Below the pieces are notes generated by a model. The model was not told the origin of the DNA. It searched no databases and saw nothing but the letters and a program-made list of their open reading frames with translations. From positions 431,810 through 495,809 of the forward strand of contig NZ_KK073876.1 of the NCBI RefSeq assembly GCF_000585415.1: DNA of 64,000 nt, written 5' to 3'. Shown here one piece after another: positions 15,173-64,000 of the stretch. The stretch's first letter is position 1, and each line of letters starts with the position of its first letter. The position numbers and the translations under genes were made by a program. The DNA comes from Sphingomonas jaspsi DSM 18422. GTDB lineage: Bacteria; Pseudomonadota; Alphaproteobacteria; Sphingomonadales; Sphingomonadaceae.

Positions 15173-16003
15173 TCAGAGCGGGGGTGCGCTCGGCGCGGTA
15201 CCGCCTCCCAGCAGGGCGGCGGATTCCAGTTCGTCTAGCGCGCGGTGGGCGGCAATGTAGCGCCGGGCCGACACCACCCACTGGCTCGCGTTTCCGGCGC
15301 CGGGGAGCCGCATCGTCTCGGCCAGTGCTGCGTCGACTTCGCCTCCCCGCAAGCGGGCGATTGCGCGGTCGTAACGGGCCTGCGGCTGGGGCGATGGCGT
15401 GTCGGTACGATGGATGGCCATGATCGATCCTAGCTCGCGCTTTACCCCGTCCCACCAACCTTCATCGGGAGCGCCGCTGCGAAGCGAGGGTCCAAGCGCT
15501 TCATACTGCTGGACGAGCGCGTCGAGGCGCACTGGTTCGCGCGAAGCGGTGATGACGGTCGCGACGGCAGCTTGGTGACGATCGCCGAACCGCTGGACCA
15601 GCAACGGCTCGAGATAGCCAAGCGCCACGCCGCGATCGATCGCGCGGCGGGCGGCGAAGGCGATCAGCAGCGCGTCGGCACGGCCGGCAGATCCGGCTGC
15701 GGCTTTGGCCTGGCCTTCGATCGCCGCCAGCCGGCTTTCAAGGGTCGAAATCCGTGCCGCATCGACCGCTGTCAGCGTGGGGCTGGCCGCCACGGCAGGC
15801 TGCGGCTGGGCGCTTGCCGGTGCTGGCGCCAGGGCGGCGGCCACGGGCGGCGCGGCCTTGGGCTCGACCCCGAAAAATCGCGCGCCCGCGTCCCAGCGCG
15901 ACAGGCCCCAAGTCGCCATTCCGGCGCCTGCGAACAGCAGCAGGATCGTCCAGGCGATCCGCGCTCCCCATCCGGATCGTTGTGGTTGATATGTCACGCT
16001 CAT
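15173..16003 (-). CDS. HemD-linked membrane protein (mitofilin/HemX-like)
   Basis: A 276-residue protein with one N-terminal membrane anchor (IAWTILLLFAGAGMATWGL, about residue 17-35), an Ala/Pro-rich stretch and a helical domain beginning ARISTLESRLAAIEGQ. It matches the single-pass protein found after hemC-hemD in alphaproteobacteria, annotated as mitofilin-like or HemX-like, with role unknown. The ATG 16003 overlaps the hemD stop as ATGA. Confidence 0.78.
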   Translation of the reverse strand: MSVTYQPQRSGWGARIAWTILLLFAGAGMATWGLSRWDAGARFFGVEPKAAPPVAAALAPAPASAQPQPAVAASPTLTAVDAARISTLESRLAAIEGQAKAAAGSAGRADALLIAFAARRAIDRGVALGYLEPLLVQRFGDRHQAAVATVITASREPVRLDALVQQYEALGPSLRSGAPDEGWWDGVKRELGSIMAIHRTDTPSPQPQARYDRAIARLRGGEVDAALAETMRLPGAGNASQWVVSARRYIAAHRALDELESAALLGGGTAPSAPPL

Positions 16004-16662
16004 CGGCCGCCTGTCTGGCACAGCTTGGCAGCAAGGGCCAGCAACTGCGCATCGCCCGGCTGGTCCGCGACGGCGATGACCCGCCATCCGCCCCCGCAGG
16101 CAATGGCCGCGGCGGAGCTGATCGCCACGATGTCGATCCCGCCGCGGTCGGTTACCAGCTCGGCCAGCCGTTTACCCGCGCGCGGACTGTGGATCGCGAC
16201 GACTTGGTCCGTCATCGGCGGCAGCGCGGGCGCTGGAATGGCGCGCGCTTCATACACGGCGACCGCGGTGATGTTGGCGCGCCCTGGCGGTGCCGTCCGA
16301 TGCCGACCGCCCGGGTGTAGCAGACGTAAATCTGCGGGCAGGGCATGCAACAGGTCGTCGACCCCGCCCTCGCCCGTTTCTTGCACGGAAAAGCCGGCTG
16401 CGCGTGCCGCATCGGCCGTGACCGCTCCAACCGCGAACACCGGCAGGTCGCGATACAGTGCCAGCTGCCGGTTGCCGTACCGAACTGCATTGGCGCTGGT
16501 CAGCAGCAGGCCGTCGAATTGGGACGCGGCCGGCGCGCTCCAGTCCAGCGGAACGACTTCGAACAGGGGGCAGCCGACGACGGTCAGTCCCAACGCTCTC
16601 GCACGGGCGATGCTGGCCGACAGCCCCGGTTCAGGGCGCACCAGCAGCAGGGTCCGCATCAC
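16000..16662 (-). CDS. hemD: Uroporphyrinogen-III synthase
   Basis: Closes hydroxymethylbilane to uroporphyrinogen III with D-ring inversion. The 220-residue sequence is poorly conserved, as in all HemD. It starts TLLLVRPEPGLSASIARA, has GLLLTSANAVR in the first domain and IVAISSAAAIACGG near the end, the recurring LTSxNAV-type motifs. It overlaps hemC upstream by 4 nt (ATGA) and the mitofilin-like gene downstream; this position supports the assignment. Confidence 0.9.
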   Translation of the reverse strand: MMRTLLLVRPEPGLSASIARARALGLTVVGCPLFEVVPLDWSAPAASQFDGLLLTSANAVRYGNRQLALYRDLPVFAVGAVTADAARAAGFSVQETGEGGVDDLLHALPADLRLLHPGGRHRTAPPGRANITAVAVYEARAIPAPALPPMTDQVVAIHSPRAGKRLAELVTDRGGIDIVAISSAAAIACGGGWRVIAVADQPGDAQLLALAAKLCQTGGR

Positions 16663-17579
16663 GCCTCGAACAGCAGGCGGATACTTGCCGGCGCGTCGGC
16701 CAGCATTTCGCGCGCCAGCGCAGCGGGGCCGTCGACATCGCCTACCGCAAAGCGAGCCCGGCCATCAATCCGTTCCGCCCCGTCCTCGCTCAGCAACTCG
16801 CAGCGAAAGTCGACACGATCGCCATCGACGATAGCAAGCGCCGCGACGGGCGAATGGCATGTGCCGCCTAGCGCGCGGGTGTAGGCGCGCTCGGCCATGA
16901 CGGCAGCGTGCGTGTCGCGATGGTCGATCGCCTTCAGAAGTTCCACCACGCGCTTATCGTCACCGCGACACTCGATCCCGACCGCGCCCTGCGCCGGTGC
17001 CGGCAGCATCTCGTCGACCCCGATCGTGCTGCCGACGTCCTTGCGGCCCAGCCGGTCGAGTCCGGCTGCCGCGAGCAGGGTCGCATCGACTTCCCCGCTT
17101 TCGCGCTTGGCAAGCCGCGTGTCGACGTTGCCCCGAAGGGTGACGATGTTGAGATCGGGTCGCTTGCCCCTGAGCTGAGCGGCGCGGCGCGGACTGCTCG
17201 TGCCGACGGTCGCCCCGGCGGCGAGTGCTGCAATCGATTCCGCGCCGATCAACCGGTCGCGCACATCGGCGCGCGGCAGCATCGCGGCGATGACCAGGAT
17301 GTCGGGTCGTTCGCTTTCCACGTCCTTCATCGAATGCACCGAAATGTCGGTGTCGCCGGCTAAAAGGGCGACGTCCAGCTCCTTGGTCCACAGCGCCTTG
17401 CCGCCGACATCGGCCAGCGGCCGATCCTGGATCCGGTCGCCGCTGGTCTTGACGGTGTGGATCGCCACCGCCCCCTTTTTCCAGCCGTGCGCGGCTTCCA
17501 GCGCGGCCGCCACCATATGCGCTTGGGCCAGCGCCAGCGGGCTGCCCCGCGTTCCCAACCGGATCTGAATCTCGCTCAT
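16659..17579 (-). CDS. hemC: Porphobilinogen deaminase (hydroxymethylbilane synthase)
   Basis: Condenses four porphobilinogens into hydroxymethylbilane. The 306-residue protein shows RLGTRGSPLALAQ, the loop KTSGDRIQDRPLADVGGKALW, HSMKDV, GTSSPRRAAQL, LRGNVDTRL and APAQGAVGIE. Cys241 in LGGTCHSPVAA binds the dipyrromethane cofactor. It is divergent from tsaD, with 49 bp between the two starts. Confidence 0.97.
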   Translation of the reverse strand: MSEIQIRLGTRGSPLALAQAHMVAAALEAAHGWKKGAVAIHTVKTSGDRIQDRPLADVGGKALWTKELDVALLAGDTDISVHSMKDVESERPDILVIAAMLPRADVRDRLIGAESIAALAAGATVGTSSPRRAAQLRGKRPDLNIVTLRGNVDTRLAKRESGEVDATLLAAAGLDRLGRKDVGSTIGVDEMLPAPAQGAVGIECRGDDKRVVELLKAIDHRDTHAAVMAERAYTRALGGTCHSPVAALAIVDGDRVDFRCELLSEDGAERIDGRARFAVGDVDGPAALAREMLADAPASIRLLFEA

Positions 17580-17628
17580 CCTTGCTAGCGCTAGCCTAAG
17601 CGGGGCTTTTTAGGCAAAGGCCTTTGTC

Positions 17629-18660
17629 ATGGCGCTGATCCTCGCCCTCGAATCCTCCTGCGACGACAGCGCCGCCGCGCTTGTCACGTCCGACCGCCAG
17701 ATCCTGGCGCAAGCGGTCGTCGGCCAGAATGACGCGCACCGTCCGTTCGGCGGCGTGGTCCCCGAAATCGCTGCGCGCGCTCATGTCGAAATTTTGCCTG
17801 GGCTCGTCCGGCAGGTGCTCCACGATGCCGACGTTTCGGTGGGCGACGTTGACGCGATCGCTGCCACCGCCGGCCCGGGCCTTATCGGCGGGGTGATGGT
17901 CGGGCTCCTCGCAGGCAAGGGTCTTGCGCTGGCATCGGGCAAGCCGCTGGTCGCGGTCAATCACCTCGAAGGCCATGCGCTCAGCCCGCGGCTGGTCGAC
18001 CGGGCGCTCGACTTTCCCTACTTATTGCTGCTCGCCAGCGGCGGCCATTGCCAGCTGTTGGAAGTGCGCGGGGTCGGTGATTACCGCCGCCTCGCCACCA
18101 CCATCGACGATGCGGCGGGCGAAGCGTTCGACAAGGCGGCCAAACTGCTCGACCTCGGTTATCCCGGCGGACCGGCGATCGAGGCGTTGGCCAAGGACGG
18201 CGACCCGAATGCCGTAGCGCTCCCGCGCCCGCTGGTCGGCAGCGGCGAACCCCATTTCAGTTTCGCGGGCCTGAAGGGCGCAGTGCAGCGCGCGGTGCAA
18301 GCGGGCACTCACCGGCCCGAGGATATTGCCGCCAGCTTCCAGCAGGCGGTGGTCGACTGTTTCGTCGACCGCACCCGGATCGCGTTGGAAAAGAGCGATG
18401 CGCCGTCGCTGGTCGTCGCGGGCGGCGTCGCCGCCAACGCCAGCGTGCGGGACGCGCTGCGACAGTTGGCCGAGAGAAATGGCCGTCGCTTCTCGGTCCC
18501 GCCCGGCTGGCTGTGCACCGACAATGCGGCGATGATCGGCTGGGCCGGGGCGGAGCGTTTCGCGGCGGGATTGATCGACGGGCTCGACGCCCCGGCACGG
18601 GCGCGCTGGCCGCTCGATCCCGACGGCGAAAAGGTCAGGGGGGCAGGGGTTAAGGCATGA
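17629..18660 (+). CDS. tsaD: tRNA N6-adenosine threonylcarbamoyltransferase TsaD
   Basis: Transfers threonylcarbamoyl to A37 of ANN-decoding tRNAs, working with TsaB/TsaE. The 343-residue ASKHA protein starts ALILALESSCDDSAAALV and has the metal-binding NHLEGH motif, LLLASGGHCQLL, and a late VVAGGVAANASVRDAL phosphate loop. Its stop overlaps the gpsA start (ATGA, 18657-18660). Confidence 0.97.
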   Translation: MALILALESSCDDSAAALVTSDRQILAQAVVGQNDAHRPFGGVVPEIAARAHVEILPGLVRQVLHDADVSVGDVDAIAATAGPGLIGGVMVGLLAGKGLALASGKPLVAVNHLEGHALSPRLVDRALDFPYLLLLASGGHCQLLEVRGVGDYRRLATTIDDAAGEAFDKAAKLLDLGYPGGPAIEALAKDGDPNAVALPRPLVGSGEPHFSFAGLKGAVQRAVQAGTHRPEDIAASFQQAVVDCFVDRTRIALEKSDAPSLVVAGGVAANASVRDALRQLAERNGRRFSVPPGWLCTDNAAMIGWAGAERFAAGLIDGLDAPARARWPLDPDGEKVRGAGVKA

Positions 18661-54626: not shown

Positions 54627-56980
<2,354 letters not shown>

Positions 56981-57182: not shown

Positions 57183-57704
57183 TCAGCGGCCGATCGACGG
57201 CGACTGCTGGGCCTTGGGGCGCGAGGCGGCCTGCTGTTCGGCGACGCTGAGCGTCCCGTCCTTGTTGGCGTCGAGCCGGTCGAAATTGGACAGGGTCGGG
57301 GCGCGGAATTCGTCCTTCGAAATGGCGCCGTCCTTGTTCTTGTCGAATTCGTCGAGGAACGGCTTCGAATTGGCTTCGGGCATCGCCGGCAGCTTGGCCT
57401 GGGCGTTGAATTCGGCCTTGCTGATCGATCCGTTGCCGTCGGTATCGACCCGGGCGAAGGCGGCGTCGCGCTGCGCCGCCATTTCGTCGAGCTGCGCCTT
57501 TGCGGTGCGGATCAGGCGGGCCTTGATCTCCGCATCGTCGGCCTTGCCGTCGTGGTTGGCGTCGAGATCGGCGTAGTCGGCGTCGAGCTCCGCGGTCAAT
57601 TCGGCCTTGGCGACGGGCTTGGGCTGGTCGGCTTCGGGCGCGGCCTGCGCCAGCGCGGCGGTGGAAGCGAAAAGCAGGGTCAGGGCAGTGATCGGTCGAA
57701 GCAT
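57183..57704 (-). CDS. Exported EF-hand protein 1
   Basis: A 173-residue protein with a signal peptide (LRPITALTLLFASTAALAQA). Four EF-hand loops follow: DANHDGKADDAE, DTDGNGSISKAE, DKNKDGAISKDE and DANKDGTLSVAE. Calcium binding is expected outside the cytoplasm. I used ATG 57704 because the longer frame has no signal character. Paralogous to the next gene. Confidence 0.88.
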   Translation of the reverse strand: MLRPITALTLLFASTAALAQAAPEADQPKPVAKAELTAELDADYADLDANHDGKADDAEIKARLIRTAKAQLDEMAAQRDAAFARVDTDGNGSISKAEFNAQAKLPAMPEANSKPFLDEFDKNKDGAISKDEFRAPTLSNFDRLDANKDGTLSVAEQQAASRPKAQQSPSIGR

Positions 57705-57797
57705 GAAAGATGTCCCCGAAATGGGTGTGGTCCAAGTGGGCGCGCTTGTCGCGCCGCGCAGCATGTTGCGCAAGCGGGATTGCAAGAGGATGAACGA

Positions 57798-57847: not shown

Positions 57848-58354
57848 CTAGCGCTTGGCCGGGCGGGCCGCGGCGCGTTCCTGTACGCTCAGCTTGCCGT
57901 CCTTGTTGGCGTCGAGCTTGTCGAAGTCGGCGAGCGGTCCCGCGCGAAATTCCTGCAGCGTAATCGCCTGGTCCTTGTTGCTGTCCATGCGTGCCAGAAC
58001 CTTGCCGGCATCCGGCTTGGGCGCCGCAGGGACAGGCGCGGCAGCATTGAATTCGGCCAGGCTGAGCTGACCGTCATGGTTGGTGTCGAGCTTCTTGAAT
58101 GCAGCCTCCCGGCGCGCATTGACGACGGTAACGCGCTGCGCTGCCATCCTCGATTCCGCTGCTTCGATCTCCAGCTTGCTGAGCTGGCCGTCCTTGTTCG
58201 TGTCCATGGCAACAAAGCGGGCGTCGATGGCGCTCAGAAAATCGGACTTCGTCATCGGCTGCACGGCCGGTTTTACCGTCGCGGCTGGCGCCTTGTCTGC
58301 GGTTGGGGCGGCACTGGCGGCAAAGGCCGCGATCGTCAGGGCAAAAATACTCAT
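57848..58354 (-). CDS. Exported EF-hand protein 2
   Basis: A 168-residue protein with a signal peptide (MSIFALTIAAFAASAAPTADK) and four EF-hand loops: DTNKDGQLSKLE, DTNHDGQLSLAE, DSNKDQAITLQE (Gly replaced by Gln, so a weaker site) and DANKDGKLSVQE. It is transcribed away from the giant repeat protein and shares its upstream region. Confidence 0.88.
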   Translation of the reverse strand: MSIFALTIAAFAASAAPTADKAPAATVKPAVQPMTKSDFLSAIDARFVAMDTNKDGQLSKLEIEAAESRMAAQRVTVVNARREAAFKKLDTNHDGQLSLAEFNAAAPVPAAPKPDAGKVLARMDSNKDQAITLQEFRAGPLADFDKLDANKDGKLSVQERAAARPAKR

Positions 58355-58659: not shown

Positions 58660-61600
58660 ATGACGAATAACACCACGTCGCGGGTAGCTTTGTTTGCCGG
58701 CGTATCCCTTGCCGTCTTCGCATGCCCGGCAGTAGCCGCAGCGGCGACCGTACCGGGACAAGGCAGCCTGGAGATCGCTCCGGACGTCTTCGACATCATC
58801 ACCATCGGTAACCTGCAGCATGGCGTAACCAACAGCGGCTCGGGCACCGTCACCTCGACCGTCGCCTCCGACAACACCGGCAAATATCTGCAGCTCGGGA
58901 TTGCTACCGGCGCCACCCCCGCCGGCAACGTCGAGCTCGGCATCGTCCATCCGGCGGCCGCGACCGGCACCGACAGCGCGTCCATCGTCGCTTATGCGAC
59001 GGCCATCGGCGGCGGTGCCGAGGTCGCAAACGCGGCCATTTCCGGCCCGGCCGTCAACCAGTTCGGGTCCGGCGCCGGATCGGGCGAGATGGCAGTCGCC
59101 AACGGCGGCAGCCTCAATATCCAGGCGGGCGCGGCCGCGCTCGGCTCCACGGCAAACGCTAACGCCTCGGTCGGTACCGGCATCGGACAGACGCTCAGCA
59201 TGGGCAAGGATGCAGTTGCGCTGATCGCCAATGCCGGTGGCGGCACGCTGGAAATCCAGGCGGACGCATTCGCCGAGGGCACCAACGCCAACGCCAACGC
59301 CAACCTGGGCGCCGGACTTTTGCAGGACGTGACGAGCGCAAACGGCACTGCTGGCGCGCGCGTCACCAATAATGGGGACTTGAGCATTGCCGCTGCGGCG
59401 ACTGCCTTCGCATCCGGCGGTACGGCCAGCGCCAATGTCGGCCAGGGTATCGCCCAAGCGGCGTCGGGCCTGGGCGCGAACGTTGAATTGAACAATGGCG
59501 GCGATCTCGAAATCAGCGCCGCAGCACTGGTCAGCGCGTTCACGGCCGATGCAAACGCCACGATCGGCGTTGGCGTCAGTCAGGCCGCTGTAGCCAATTC
59601 GGGCACGGCAAGCGCCGCCATCGGCAACGACGGATCGCTGTCGGTCCTCGCCGATGCTTCGGCCGAGGGCGTATTCGCCAATGCCAATGCGACGGTCGAC
59701 ACGGCTTATCATCAGGCGGCGACCGGGACGAACGTCGACGTCAGCCTCACCAACAGCGGCACGATGGTCGGCGGCGCCATTGCGAATGCATCCGCATCTG
59801 CCTCGGCCTCGGCGAACGCCACGCTTGGTGTGGGCGTATATCAGGAAGGCCTCGGGCAAACGGTCAATCTTGGCATCCAGAATGACGGCCTGATGAATGT
59901 CGGCGCGTCGGCAAATGCGACGGCGCTGGGCGTCGCCAATGCCGGTGCGTTCGCTTCGGTCGGATTCGCCCAAGTGGCGAGTGGCAGCGACGTTACGTTG
60001 GACCTCACCAACAATGGGCTGATGAGCGCGGGCGTCGTTGCAGACGCAAATGGCGCGAGTGCGAACGCTCAGGCCTTGATGCTCGCCGGCTATTATCAAT
60101 CCGCTTCGGCGGGGGCGACGGCGGACCTTAGCATCAACAACGACGGGTCGATGCGTGCCGGCGCGTCGGCAGAGGCTAGCGGTGATGTCGCTAGCGCCCA
60201 AGCGGGCATGCAATATGGCGTCTTCCAACAGGCGGGCGCGAGTGGCACGGCGAACGCGGCAATCAACAACAGCAGCGAAATCAGCGTTGGCGTTGGTGCT
60301 CACGCAGTCGGCGTCACATCGGCCAACGCGCAGGCCAACATGCTGGCGGGCATCGTTCAGGTTGCTTCGGCGGCCAGCGTCGCATCGGCCAACATTTCGA
60401 ACAGCGGCACGATGAGCGTCGTCGCAGGCGCGCAGGCGACCGCCAGCGGCCTCGCAAATGCCTCGGCCGGAATGCAGGTCGGCGTCTATCAGTCGGCGAC
60501 TGCAGGAAGCTCCGCCAGTGCGTCGTTGGTTAACAGTGGGCCGCTGACGGTTGCCGCAGAAGCGTCGGCCAACTCCGCCAGCAGCGCCAATGCCAGTGCC
60601 GGCATCCAGGCCGGCATCGCCCAGCTGGTGTCGGGCGGCACAACCGCTAACGCCGATATCACCAATTCCGGCGACATCGAGGTTAGTGCGGACGCCGAGG
60701 CGACCGGTGCCAATGCTGCGGCCCAGGCCGGCATCGGTGTCGGGATCGTCCAAGACGTCGCGAGTGGCGGGAACGGCAGCGCCAACTTAGCCAATAGCGG
60801 GTCGATTACCATCGCGGCGGACGCCGGTGCCCAGGTCGCTGCGACCGCCGTTGCCACCGCGCAGATCAGCGCGGGTATCTCGCAGTCGGTTGCCGCCTCG
60901 GGCGATGCCCTGGCCGACCTGACCAACGACGGCGCGATCTTCATCAACGTCAACGCCGATGCATTCGCGACAGTTGCGGCCTCGGCCAATGCGGCCCTTG
61001 GGGTCGGCATCGCGCAGACCGCCTCGGCGAGTGGCGATGCAACGGCGTCGATTCTCAATAACGACCAGATCGCGATGAGCGTGAATGCCGTTGCCACTGA
61101 CGCGGCGGCGAACGCGGCTGCCGGTTACGCCATCAGCCAGTCGGCGGTAGCGAGCGGTGCGGCGGTTGCCAGCTACGCGCAGGGCAGCAGTGGCACCTTA
61201 TCGCTGGATGTCGCGGCGACGGCCTCGGGCGTTGCGGCGACGGCCAACGCGGTCGCTTCGGGTCTCGTCAACCAGTTCGCCAGCGGCTCCGCCGCGTCGG
61301 CGCTGGTCGACAATGACGGTTCCATGGACCTTACCATTTCGGCGGTCGCTAACGGCTCAACCGTGGCGGACGCGGTTGCGAGCATGACCAGCCAGGCCGG
61401 CATCTTCCAGTCGGCGATAGCCAATGGGACGAGCCAAGATGCATCTGTGGCAGTCGTCAACGGCGGCACCATCAACATGGCAGCGAATGCCGACGCCATC
61501 GCCACCAACGGCGGAGCGCAGGCCTATGCCTCGGTCTACAGCGGCATCGAACAGAATGTGTCTGCGGCTGACGGCAATGCGACGGCCTCGGTAGACAATA

Positions 61601-64000
61601 GCGGCACGCTGAACATTTCGGGTATCGCCAATGCATCGGGCCAGTTCGCGCAGGCCACGGGTTATGGCTACGGCATCTACCAGTCGGCGACGGCGGGTGG
61701 CGGCTTCGATGCGACGGCATCGATCAACAACAGCGGCACCTACAATGTTGTGGCGGCGGCCAATGCCACCGCGACGTCGGGCCTCGCCGATGCGTCGGCC
61801 AACGCCTTCGACGTAGCGGTGCAAAGCGCTAACGCGACCAGCGGCGGCGACGCCTCGGTCATTTTCGCCAACACCGGCGATGTGACCTTGAACGCCAACG
61901 CGCATGCCTCCGGCTCCAACGCGGTTGCGTCGGCCTTCGTTGGGGCCCTGGTCGACCAGAGCGCCGCCGCCAACAGCGGAACGGATCCGAGCGGCCACGC
62001 GTCGGCCAGTTTCACCAATGGCACGGCCGGTGCGATCAACGTCGGCGCGACGGCGGTTGCCATCGGCACCAACGCCGGGGCCGATGCGCTCGCCAGTGCC
62101 GACACGATGGTGTCGCAGGACGTGACGTCGGATAGCGGCTCGGCCAACGCGTCGATCCAGAACGACGGCTCGCTGGACATCGCCCTGAGCGCGACCGCGC
62201 TCGCTTCGACCACGGCGACAGCGAGTGCGCTGTTCAACCCGACGTCGAATGCGGTGATCTACCAGAATGCATCGGGTGCGACGTCGGCTTCGGTCAGCCT
62301 CGCCAATGCGGGCGACCTTTCGCTGACGGCCGACGCCTCGGCCCAGGCCGGTACGCTGGCCAACGCCCTCGCTAGCATCCAGTCGGCGATCGCGCAGAAT
62401 GCCAGCGCGTCGGGAACCGCTTCGGTCTCGCTCGACAATGGCGGATCGCTCGACATTACCGGTACGGCCAAGGCTTCGGCTGCGACGGCCAATGCCACGG
62501 TCAACCTCGATAGTTCGATCGACCAGAATGCCGTGTCGACTTCGGCTGCGGCTTCGGTGTCGCTCACCAGCGGCGGCGACATGACGATCGGTGGACAGGC
62601 GATGGCCCAAGGCACGATCGCCAATGCCACCCTGAACAACAACGCTGCGATCAACCAGCAGGCAGTCGGCCTGGCCGGTGCCGACGTGACGTTGACCAAC
62701 GGCGGCAACATGCTGATCGGTGGCGCCGCGGTGGCGATGGGTTCGACCGCTAACGCCAACGCGGCGGTGAACAACGTCCTGAACCAGGTCGCTACGGCGA
62801 TCGGCGGCTCTGCCAGCGCGTCGGTCGGCCTTAGCAACGGCGGTACGATCGACATGGTCGCGCTGGCAATTGCGGAAGGTTCAAGTGCCAACGCCAATGC
62901 GAACCTTATCAACGGCATCAACCAGACGGCCAACGGCGGCAACGGCGCGACGGCGTCGCTGACCAACGATGGCGAGCTGAGCATCGCCGCCATCGCCGAT
63001 GCGACCGGCGGCGACGTCGGGGCCAATGCCAACCTCGTCAATGCCATCCGCCAGAGCGCTTCGGCGCCGACGGGCACGGTTTCGGCGTCGCTTGACAGCA
63101 GTGGGTCGCTCGACCTGACGGCCGGCGCGCTCGCCATCGGTGGCACTGCGCAGGCGAATGCCAACAACATCAACGCCATCAACCAGCAAGCCGGTGTCGG
63201 CACCGGACTGGCCGAAGTTGGCTTCAGCAACGGCGGCGAGCTGAACATTCTCGCCCTCGCGACGGCGGTCGCGGACACCGGCGCGGCGAATGCAGCGGCG
63301 GCAGCCATCAATGCCGTCAGCCTCAACGCCGGCGCGACCAGCGGAACGGCGTCGGTCGCCTTTGCCAACAGCGGGACGGCAACGATCTTCGCCGATGCGG
63401 TGGCTTATGCCGGCTCGACGGGCACGCAGGCCAATGCCAATGCGCAGCTGGTCAACGGCATCGCCGGAGCGGCGGACGTGACTTCCGGCCTCGCGACCGT
63501 GGCCTTCGACAATAGCGGATCGCTGGCTATCGGCGCCTCGGCTTCGGCAACTGCCAGTGGGCCGGCTGTGGCGAACGCGCAGGCGGTCAACGGCGTGACA
63601 TTGAACGCCAGTGCGAACAGCGGCACGGCCGTTGTCGATGTGACCAACAGCGGTGAGTTCAGTTTCGAAGCCACTGCGGTCGCGCTCGGCACGGCAGCTG
63701 CCAATGCTGGCGCTGTTGCGGTGAACGGTCTCGTCATGTCGGCTGGTGTTACCACCGGTGCAGCGACGGCGTCCCTGTCGAACAGCGGAAGCATGGCCAA
63801 CGACGCGCACGCGTTTGCGGCGGGCAGCGCGGCCAATGCCAACGCACAGAACGTCAACGCCTACGTCCAGTCGGCGAGCGCGGATGTCGGAACGGCGACC
63901 GCCAACGTCACGAACAGCGGTTCGCTGAGCGCGAGCGCGCAAGCGACGGCCAATGCGTCGAATGCCGCCAACGCGCAGGCCATTCTGTTCGGCGGACTGA
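58660..64000 (+). CDS. Giant exported repeat protein, beta-solenoid-like (runs off right edge)
   Basis: At least 1,780 residues, still open at the window edge. A signal peptide (SRVALFAGVSLAVFACPAVAAAA) leads to an N-terminal cap (SLEIAPDVFDIITIGNLQHG). About 38 degenerate repeats of 41-50 residues follow. Each has a SG/DG/GG-x-L-x-I turn and strand, an Ala-rich strand, an ANA-rich strand with a central GI.Q (Gln almost invariant until near the end), a SA.SG turn and a final A.A.L.N strand. Composition is dominated by Ala, Asn, Ser, Gly and Thr, with only one Cys seen in the signal peptide. I infer a secreted or surface beta-solenoid adhesin or coat protein. ATG 58660 has AGGGG 8 nt upstream. 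Confidence 0.85.
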   Translation, partial: MTNNTTSRVALFAGVSLAVFACPAVAAAATVPGQGSLEIAPDVFDIITIGNLQHGVTNSGSGTVTSTVASDNTGKYLQLGIATGATPAGNVELGIVHPAAATGTDSASIVAYATAIGGGAEVANAAISGPAVNQFGSGAGSGEMAVANGGSLNIQAGAAALGSTANANASVGTGIGQTLSMGKDAVALIANAGGGTLEIQADAFAEGTNANANANLGAGLLQDVTSANGTAGARVTNNGDLSIAAAATAFASGGTASANVGQGIAQAASGLGANVELNNGGDLEISAAALVSAFTADANATIGVGVSQAAVANSGTASAAIGNDGSLSVLADASAEGVFANANATVDTAYHQAATGTNVDVSLTNSGTMVGGAIANASASASASANATLGVGVYQEGLGQTVNLGIQNDGLMNVGASANATALGVANAGAFASVGFAQVASGSDVTLDLTNNGLMSAGVVADANGASANAQALMLAGYYQSASAGATADLSINNDGSMRAGASAEASGDVASAQAGMQYGVFQQAGASGTANAAINNSSEISVGVGAHAVGVTSANAQANMLAGIVQVASAASVASANISNSGTMSVVAGAQATASGLANASAGMQVGVYQSATAGSSASASLVNSGPLTVAAEASANSASSANASAGIQAGIAQLVSGGTTANADITNSGDIEVSADAEATGANAAAQAGIGVGIVQDVASGGNGSANLANSGSITIAADAGAQVAATAVATAQISAGISQSVAASGDALADLTNDGAIFINVNADAFATVAASANAALGVGIAQTASASGDATASILNNDQIAMSVNAVATDAAANAAAGYAISQSAVASGAAVASYAQGSSGTLSLDVAATASGVAATANAVASGLVNQFASGSAASALVDNDGSMDLTISAVANGSTVADAVASMTSQAGIFQSAIANGTSQDASVAVVNGGTINMAANADAIATNGGAQAYASVYSGIEQNVSAADGNATASVDNSGTLNISGIANASGQFAQATGYGYGIYQSATAGGGFDATASINNSGTYNVVAAANATATSGLADASANAFDVAVQSANATSGGDASVIFANTGDVTLNANAHASGSNAVASAFVGALVDQSAAANSGTDPSGHASASFTNGTAGAINVGATAVAIGTNAGADALASADTMVSQDVTSDSGSANASIQNDGSLDIALSATALASTTATASALFNPTSNAVIYQNASGATSASVSLANAGDLSLTADASAQAGTLANALASIQSAIAQNASASGTASVSLDNGGSLDITGTAKASAATANATVNLDSSIDQNAVSTSAAASVSLTSGGDMTIGGQAMAQGTIANATLNNNAAINQQAVGLAGADVTLTNGGNMLIGGAAVAMGSTANANAAVNNVLNQVATAIGGSASASVGLSNGGTIDMVALAIAEGSSANANANLINGINQTANGGNGATASLTNDGELSIAAIADATGGDVGANANLVNAIRQSASAPTGTVSASLDSSGSLDLTAGALAIGGTAQANANNINAINQQAGVGTGLAEVGFSNGGELNILALATAVADTGAANAAAAAINAVSLNAGATSGTASVAFANSGTATIFADAVAYAGSTGTQANANAQLVNGIAGAADVTSGLATVAFDNSGSLAIGASASATASGPAVANAQAVNGVTLNASANSGTAVVDVTNSGEFSFEATAVALGTAAANAGAVAVNGLVMSAGVTTGAATASLSNSGSMANDAHAFAAGSAANANAQNVNAYVQSASADVGTATANVTNSGSLSASAQATANASNAANAQAILFGGL

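Follow-up and report, generated by a model that had tools for sequence, protein, structure and literature searches.

A giant autotransporter gene at the edge of the window

The window, i.e., the whole stretch of 64,000 nucleotides of Sphingomonas jaspsi DSM 18422 that was analysed, corresponds to C1 431810-495809 of a genome consisting of one contig of 2.55 Mb. Near its right end, a frame opens with an ATG at window position 58660, continues uninterrupted to the window edge and reaches its stop at L002 12270, outside the window. The first-pass annotation of this DNA had described the frame as open to the edge, which proved correct, and had proposed that the gene be completed in search of an anchoring or secretion domain; a C-terminal autotransporter domain (PF03797) was indeed found outside the window. 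The features of the locus are as follows.

55094..56977, minus strand: thiC (Pfam), which marks the syntenic site; the locus has this flank in G014, G031 and G315 as well
57183..57785, minus strand: second divergent EF-hand protein (Pfam; synteny)
57848..58354, minus strand: divergent small EF-hand protein (Pfam), beside the autotransporter in several relatives
58660..64000, plus strand: giant classical autotransporter gene, the first 1,780 of 3,266 amino acids, running on to genome position C1 500269 (whole gene, L002 2470-12270)
58660..58746, plus strand: probable Sec signal peptide (about residues 1-29; by eye, a hydrophobic stretch ending in Ala)
59098..64000, plus strand: passenger with 37 of the 55 repeats (profile match), the 37th crossing the window edge
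60394..61050, plus strand: five repeats modelled by AlphaFold2 (residues 579-797)
63226..63768, plus strand: four consecutive repeats without a central Gln (residues 1523-1703; by eye)
L002 12403-14721, outside the window: TPR-sulfotransferase gene, next after the autotransporter (TPRs and PF13469, E-value 1.1e-44)

The product of 3,266 amino acids starts with an apparent signal peptide; the repeats span about residues 147 to 2568 and are followed by a linker, the barrel and finally a Pro-rich tail. The barrel, at about residues 2940-3190, matches the full PF03797 model (positions 1-255) with an E-value of 3.3e-48 in a Pfam search of a 652-residue C-terminal fragment, and with 2.8e-49, in the same frame, in a genome-wide search; a Pfam scan of the whole 3,266-residue chain gave one chance match. 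Because of this PF03797 barrel, the giant protein is, judged by its domains, a classical (type Va) autotransporter, and its export is nearly certain. The earlier description of a surface-type repeat protein is supported, and the role of adhesin or fibre proposed with it is plausible. With classical type Va autotransporters the protein has in common an apparent signal peptide, a repetitive passenger predicted to be beta, and a C-terminal 255-position barrel domain. It differs from them in its length and in its repeats, which matched no model in Pfam or NCBIfam, and is a real case of an unusually large autotransporter with a repeat that lacks an existing model.

The terminal barrel strand usually ends an outer-membrane protein, and classical autotransporters end with the barrel. 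The barrel of the giant protein is, in contrast, followed by a Pro-rich tail of ~53 residues with two Cys, which is possibly an anchoring or sorting tag. The tail (at about L002 12103-12267) is composed of poly-Pro, the motif (A/P)TQTC(A/P)DGS(V/T)ILA(T/S)(D/E)(S/A)CP, a second poly-Pro and a PERG end. It is present on nine outer-membrane proteins of the same genome, namely the autotransporter and eight others (L151-L158), which are four TonB receptors, three small OMP barrels and one OMP_b-brl_3 protein. All 37 of 37 genus members match a query containing the tail, mostly via the tail among the matches listed. The whole C-terminus is thus a misleading query, most of the matches listed being to the shared Pro-rich tail, and the tail was omitted in the search of 296 genomes described below. 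In other-genus autotransporters (L055, L140, L141, L143, L144 and L150, from genera g25, g36, g55 and g57), the Pro-rich tail is replaced by an end after the barrel that is, by eye, OmpA-type-like, REL/PQNRRVE(I/V)TYGPGSG. On the other side of the gene, small EF-hand proteins, one or two per locus, are encoded next to the autotransporter in G000 (the genome of the window), G014, G031, G315 and L061.

A 44-residue repeat with a central glutamine

The whole protein contains 55 repeats of about 44 residues (>3 bits, with a profile built from 31 repeats), of which 37 start in the window, in agreement with the first-pass count of about 38; the median spacing is 44. At >10 bits, the passenger has 52 matches, against 0 in 50 residue-shuffled copies; when 23 window repeats alone were used for training, the profile recovered 18 repeats outside the window. 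The repeat consensus, taken from an alignment of 326 rows covering the repeats of ten proteins, is LTNSGTISVSASASATGSGSANASATVGTGIDQSASATGGAASA. The autocorrelation of the passenger peaks at 44 and shows no 22-residue period; a doubled 22-mer was considered as the origin of the repeat and rejected for want of a lag-22 signal. Passenger positions alternate between small or hydrophobic and polar residues, with a lag-2 autocorrelation of 0.20 for AVILMF, 0.32 for Ala and 0.05 for VILMF (shuffle sd 0.02). No model was found on the repeats in Pfam or NCBIfam (NCBIfam with the whole protein at E<=1), which agrees with the first-pass annotation, in which they could not be assigned to a named family. 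At the default threshold, the only tandem repeat that TRF detects in the DNA is formed by the Pro codons of the tail, and the protein repeats are therefore old.

A Gln in the middle of the repeat, as had been read from the window, is present in 50 of the 55 repeats by a loose test that accepts any Gln within positions 21-41. The same annotation had suggested that the Gln fades along the chain toward the right edge; this gradient was not confirmed and is rejected, since the loss is confined to residues 1523-1703. This stretch shows VSLNAG, IAGAAD, VTLNAS and VMSAG in its four repeats, two of which are flagged by the loose count; the Gln then returns at residue 1706 (YVQSAS), and 15 of the 18 repeats outside the window have it by the same loose test. 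Among other passengers, the Gln repeat is matched in the close relatives and also in L061 and L063, and the remaining passengers are of a general NSGTI kind. In L063, a bin titled Rhizomicrobium, which we take to lie outside the sphingomonads, a separate Gln-repeat frame (15378-17771) with 13 repeat matches is located ~5 kb from the sulfotransferase and is cut by the contig end.

AlphaFold2 prediction of consecutive repeats, which had been recommended as a check, gives a regular, all-beta arrangement of five repeats (pLDDT 98.5, pTM 0.92, 85% strand). Three of the five repeats show three separate strand segments; in the remaining two, segments one and two are merged. Every Gln of the five-repeat block is within a strand. 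The strands recur in every modelled repeat, in a manner consistent with a solenoid. The modelled part accounts for 219 of about 2,600 passenger residues, and the input consisted of 45 aligned repeat blocks from this genome and related ones; because the input rows are repeat blocks, the alignment itself teaches the period to AlphaFold2. In our reading, the passenger would form a long beta rod, probably a solenoid, whose 44-residue repeats are centred on Gln.

Curlin (CsgA, PF07012) and FapC likewise have a Gln at regular positions of a beta repeat, and a resemblance to curlin had been noted in the first description of the repeats. This kinship did not hold. PF07012 gave no match in the protein (thresholds of E 10 for the part inside the window and E 1 for the whole), and its best match genome-wide is 12.2 bits, at another place, versus a cut-off of 20.7; curlin membership was rejected on this ground and on the autocorrelation peak at 44 instead of 22. 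A search of the PDB by sequence returned nothing for the repeats (best E 0.94), a profile search none, and Foldseek of the five-repeat model against the PDB gave 0 matches at E<=0.001. First in the Foldseek list is FapC (E 0.012, probability 0.08, TM 0.12), with CsgA at rank 23. Unlike curlin and FapC, then, the giant protein has a 44-residue repeat without a family match or a significant structural match. Curlin is exported through CsgG/E/F; the giant protein carries its own barrel. Repetitive solenoids are hard for Foldseek, and a new fold is therefore not claimed.

The adjacent TPR-sulfotransferase and its linkage to autotransporters

The sulfotransferase part of the adjacent enzyme is closest to protein-tyrosine sulfotransferases (8w5z, 6e-10; 3ap1, 4e-8), the nearest structure scoring just 42 bits. 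The TPR part has human O-GlcNAc transferase (OGT; 1w3b, 9.9e-79) as its nearest natural protein among the matches listed, and the engineered TPR protein 9qhb outscores 1w3b. The nearest natural structures are thus the OGT TPR domain and the tyrosylprotein sulfotransferases (TPSTs), one per enzyme half; unlike OGT and the TPSTs, the present enzyme unites both halves, and no structure joining an OGT-like TPR half to a sulfotransferase half was among the matches listed. The TPR part contains four NNL(G/A) motifs; in OGT, an Asn ladder binds the peptide backbone. In the sulfotransferase part, P495, R496, S497, G498, T500, L501, E517, K574, R599 and S607 are invariant in 9 of 9 family members and align to TPST chains. 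We take these residues to have PAPS-binding and catalytic roles, and, going by the alignment, the PAPS-binding and catalytic residues are kept.

Following the sulfotransferase gene are cysD (PF01507) and then cysNC with an APS-kinase domain (PF01583), both assigned by Pfam, whose products are the enzymes of PAPS synthesis; the pair may serve ordinary sulfate assimilation. Between the autotransporter and the sulfotransferase lies a terminator-like hairpin (11 pairs and T-rich bases), so that the two genes may not share one transcript; the hairpin search gave three hits versus a mean of 3.7 in shuffles, which is not above chance.

In a synteny comparison with ten reference proteins of the locus, the order autotransporter, TPR-sulfotransferase, cysD and cysNC was found in G000 and in four relatives (G014, G034, G031 and G002, the last with about 1.1 kb between the autotransporter and sulfotransferase frames). 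The first two genes are adjacent on one strand also in G025 and, in another genus, in G063 and G135. A member of another family (G054) has a 2,530-residue frame with a barrel-like end (22% identity, E 1e-12), divergent from two TPR-sulfotransferases. The contig ends beside the sulfotransferase in G201, G315, G055 and G078, and in G240 the two genes are on different contigs. G281 and G112 have distant sulfotransferase homologues without an autotransporter neighbour, and G014 has a second autotransporter copy without an adjacent sulfotransferase. The distant TPR-sulfotransferases of G281 and G112 (L058 and L059) lie, by eye, beside TonB-dependent-receptor-like genes, so that such enzymes may have further partners among surface proteins. 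In G315, barrel ends of equal score and equal identity are found at three contig ends (L145, L146 and L147), and the passengers differ on two of these contigs, perhaps by passenger exchange or as an effect of assembly.

The two genes also occur together across genomes. Among 61 relatives, the barrel family is present in seven (E<=1e-60, a cut-off picked after the results were known), and the sulfotransferase (E<=1e-100) in those seven and G054. In 296 genomes of the order, the autotransporter is found in 14 (E<=1e-20) and the sulfotransferase in 10 (E<=1e-200, likewise picked after the results were known), all 10 of which are inside the 14; at a cut-off of 1e-90, the overlap is 10 of 14. The 10 genomes are mutually related and come from four genera; the hypergeometric test gives 2e-5 at the genus level and 8e-16 at the genome level. 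The autotransporter genomes outside the 10 are G228, with a 593-residue frame only, and G064, G248 and G259, whose passengers have 10-18 repeat matches. With a nine-row sulfotransferase profile, distant homologues are detected in G228 (5e-137), G259 (3e-101) and G064 (1e-76), and none in G248 at 1e-20. Barrels without a passenger are present in G006 (a 409-residue frame, directly upstream of cysD-cysNC) and G013 (a 487-residue frame), neither of which has a family sulfotransferase at 1e-100 (8e-61 in G006; none at 1e-20 in G013), and G002 has a passenger-less paralogue alongside the full copy.

Outside the order, we scanned one genome each of 84,980 species and kept the best 79 loci, many of them from metagenome bins. 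At these 79 loci, PF03797 is the commonest family among upstream neighbours (12 of 67 usable) and occurs in 3 of 70 downstream neighbours, versus at most 1 of 94 distal control frames 4-7 kb away (from the 53 loci with long flanks). The bound of 1 for the distal frames comes from the absence of PF03797 from the 25 families listed out of 102. The difference, 15 of 137 versus at most 1 of 94, has a Fisher p of 0.003, and of 0.006 (at most 1 of 87) when seven control frames lying inside a neighbouring gene are removed; the neighbour sets may also contain spurious frames. Counting instead by a barrel profile together with NSGTI-like turns, 21 of the 79 loci have such a gene, and barrel frames number 17 within 2 kb and 3 farther away; this profile was built from 12 of the neighbours it then counts, a circularity from which the Pfam counts are free. 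The other 58 loci, including all 37 of the lowest ranked, showed no barrel or NSGTI neighbour in the flanking DNA searched.

These distant pairs of enzyme and autotransporter belong to other alpha-, beta- and gammaproteobacteria, with examples in Bradyrhizobium sp. CER78, Paraburkholderia sartisoli, Novosphingobium sp. FKTRR1, Sneathiella chinensis and Pseudomonas putida 31800; at L099, the autotransporter is upstream of the sulfotransferase by coordinates. At two Rhodopila loci the nearest neighbour is NSGTI-rich with a PEP-CTERM-like end, and the barrel frames are 5-9 kb off, which hints that the partner of the enzyme is the passenger and not the barrel. On a tree of 88 sulfotransferase domains (6 of 94 rows lacked the motif and were left out), 15 changes are required for the autotransporter label, versus 24.5 in shuffles. 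The autotransporter-linked sulfotransferases are therefore clustered and do not form one clade.

Proposed sulfation of the passenger

The heptosyltransferases (BAHT) that modify AIDA-I and TibA are encoded by genes "often followed by an autotransporter", and this linkage is taken as a sign of modification (PMC4358343). Applying the same logic, and considering the make-up of the enzyme, we propose that the passenger is sulfated in the cytoplasm. Specifically, the giant type Va autotransporter would be encoded together with a sulfating enzyme of its own that acts on the unfolded passenger before export, a reading to which we give a probability of roughly 0.58. In the cytoplasm, the OGT-like TPR groove of the enzyme would grip the passenger while it is still unfolded, and sulfate from PAPS, which CysD and CysNC from the adjoining genes would supply, would be moved onto repeat side chains. 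Sec would next carry the passenger across the inner membrane, and the barrel of the autotransporter would carry it across the outer one; outside, it would fold as a rod bearing sulfate charges, which may work as an adhesin or surface coat. The analysis itself demonstrates the repeats, the barrel, the all-beta fold predicted for five of the repeats, the linkage and co-occurrence of the genes, and the domains of the enzyme; we infer the passenger as substrate, together with the acceptor residue, the timing and the surface role.

With regard to the acceptor, the passenger has 24 Tyr in 2,556 residues, a low number, and abundant Ser, Thr and Asn. Sulfation of Tyr in eukaryotes takes place in an acidic setting, and the passenger Tyr residues are not in such a setting. 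Tyr is present in 28 of the 28 linked frames examined (10-83 each) and so may be the acceptor, but in a setting that is un-TPST-like. Against passenger sulfation stand G064, G248 and G259, which carry a passenger without a close TPR-sulfotransferase, and likewise the weaker homologue in G006, the second autotransporter copy of G014, the separate contigs in G240, the 58 distant loci at which no such neighbour was seen, the hairpin between the two genes and the possible service of cysD-cysNC in ordinary sulfate assimilation.

A broader proposal is that Proteobacteria possess a general, as yet undescribed protein-sulfation system for surface beta-solenoids, in which an enzyme combining OGT-like TPR and TPST-like parts would sulfate autotransporter passengers (at the two Rhodopila loci, an NSGTI-repeat protein with a PEP-CTERM-like end) before export to give a highly charged rod; we advance this tentatively, at somewhat short of an even chance.

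The best of the alternatives, which we nevertheless consider unlikely, is that the giant adhesin is unmodified and that the sulfotransferase acts on a separate surface polysaccharide or lipid, the genes being linked by one surface programme. Linkage and co-occurrence show shared function and not the substrate, and the occurrence of Glyco_transf_41 in 1 of 67 upstream and 2 of 70 downstream neighbours makes a sugar acceptor possible; a polypeptide is, on the other hand, favoured by the OGT-like TPR and by a catalytic part nearest protein-tyrosine sulfotransferases, and G006 has retained the barrel without both passenger and close enzyme. It is still less probable that the protein is an ordinary giant autotransporter adhesin and the adjacent sulfotransferase incidental, acting elsewhere. 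The genome does have more than one gene of the Sulfotransfer_3 kind, with 8 matches spread over 7 frames, and PF03797 in three proteins, and the three passenger-bearing relatives G064, G248 and G259 are without the close enzyme, but incidental adjacency fits badly with the distal-gene control, with adjacency recurring in two genera of the family and the divergent pair in G054, with pairs in other classes and 17 barrel frames within 2 kb versus 3 beyond, and with co-occurrence in 10 of 10 genomes at the strict cut. Finally, a curli- or Fap-like functional amyloid, in which the passenger is released and polymerises via a Gln ladder, is very improbable: a single mid-repeat Gln in most repeats and the functional amyloid FapC at the top of the Foldseek list speak for it, and the lack of a curlin repeat over the cut-off and of a 22-residue period, the 0 Foldseek matches at E<=0.001 with a TM of 0.12 to FapC, and the barrel domain in the same chain speak against it.

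If passenger sulfation is correct, it would parallel the glycosylation of autotransporters, with sulfate as the modification, would provide a natural substrate class for bacterial TPR-sulfotransferases, and would extend bacterial protein sulfation past the RaxX peptide. The pairing of autotransporter and sulfotransferase itself hints at a form of bacterial surface decoration that has yet to be described. In a literature search for a pairing of autotransporters with sulfotransferases or TPR-sulfotransferases we recognised none; subscription papers and preprints were mostly outside the search, which makes it weak evidence of absence.

Two known systems resemble the locus in gene arrangement. In common with AIDA-I/AAH and TibA/TibC, the systems with BAHT enzymes, the locus encodes a putative modifying enzyme beside an autotransporter (PMC4358343). 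The adjacent enzyme is not a heptosyltransferase but a Sulfotransfer_3 protein with TPRs; its gene is located after the autotransporter, and the putative donor is PAPS instead of ADP-heptose. RaxST, also from bacteria, is a sulfotransferase whose substrate is the secreted polypeptide RaxX, a 60-residue precursor with its gene nearby (PMC6637879, PMC4216712). The present locus has in common with RaxST-RaxX a bacterial sulfotransferase near the gene of a secreted polypeptide, here a putative substrate, and differs in pairing the enzyme with a giant autotransporter and in the long TPR domain of the enzyme.
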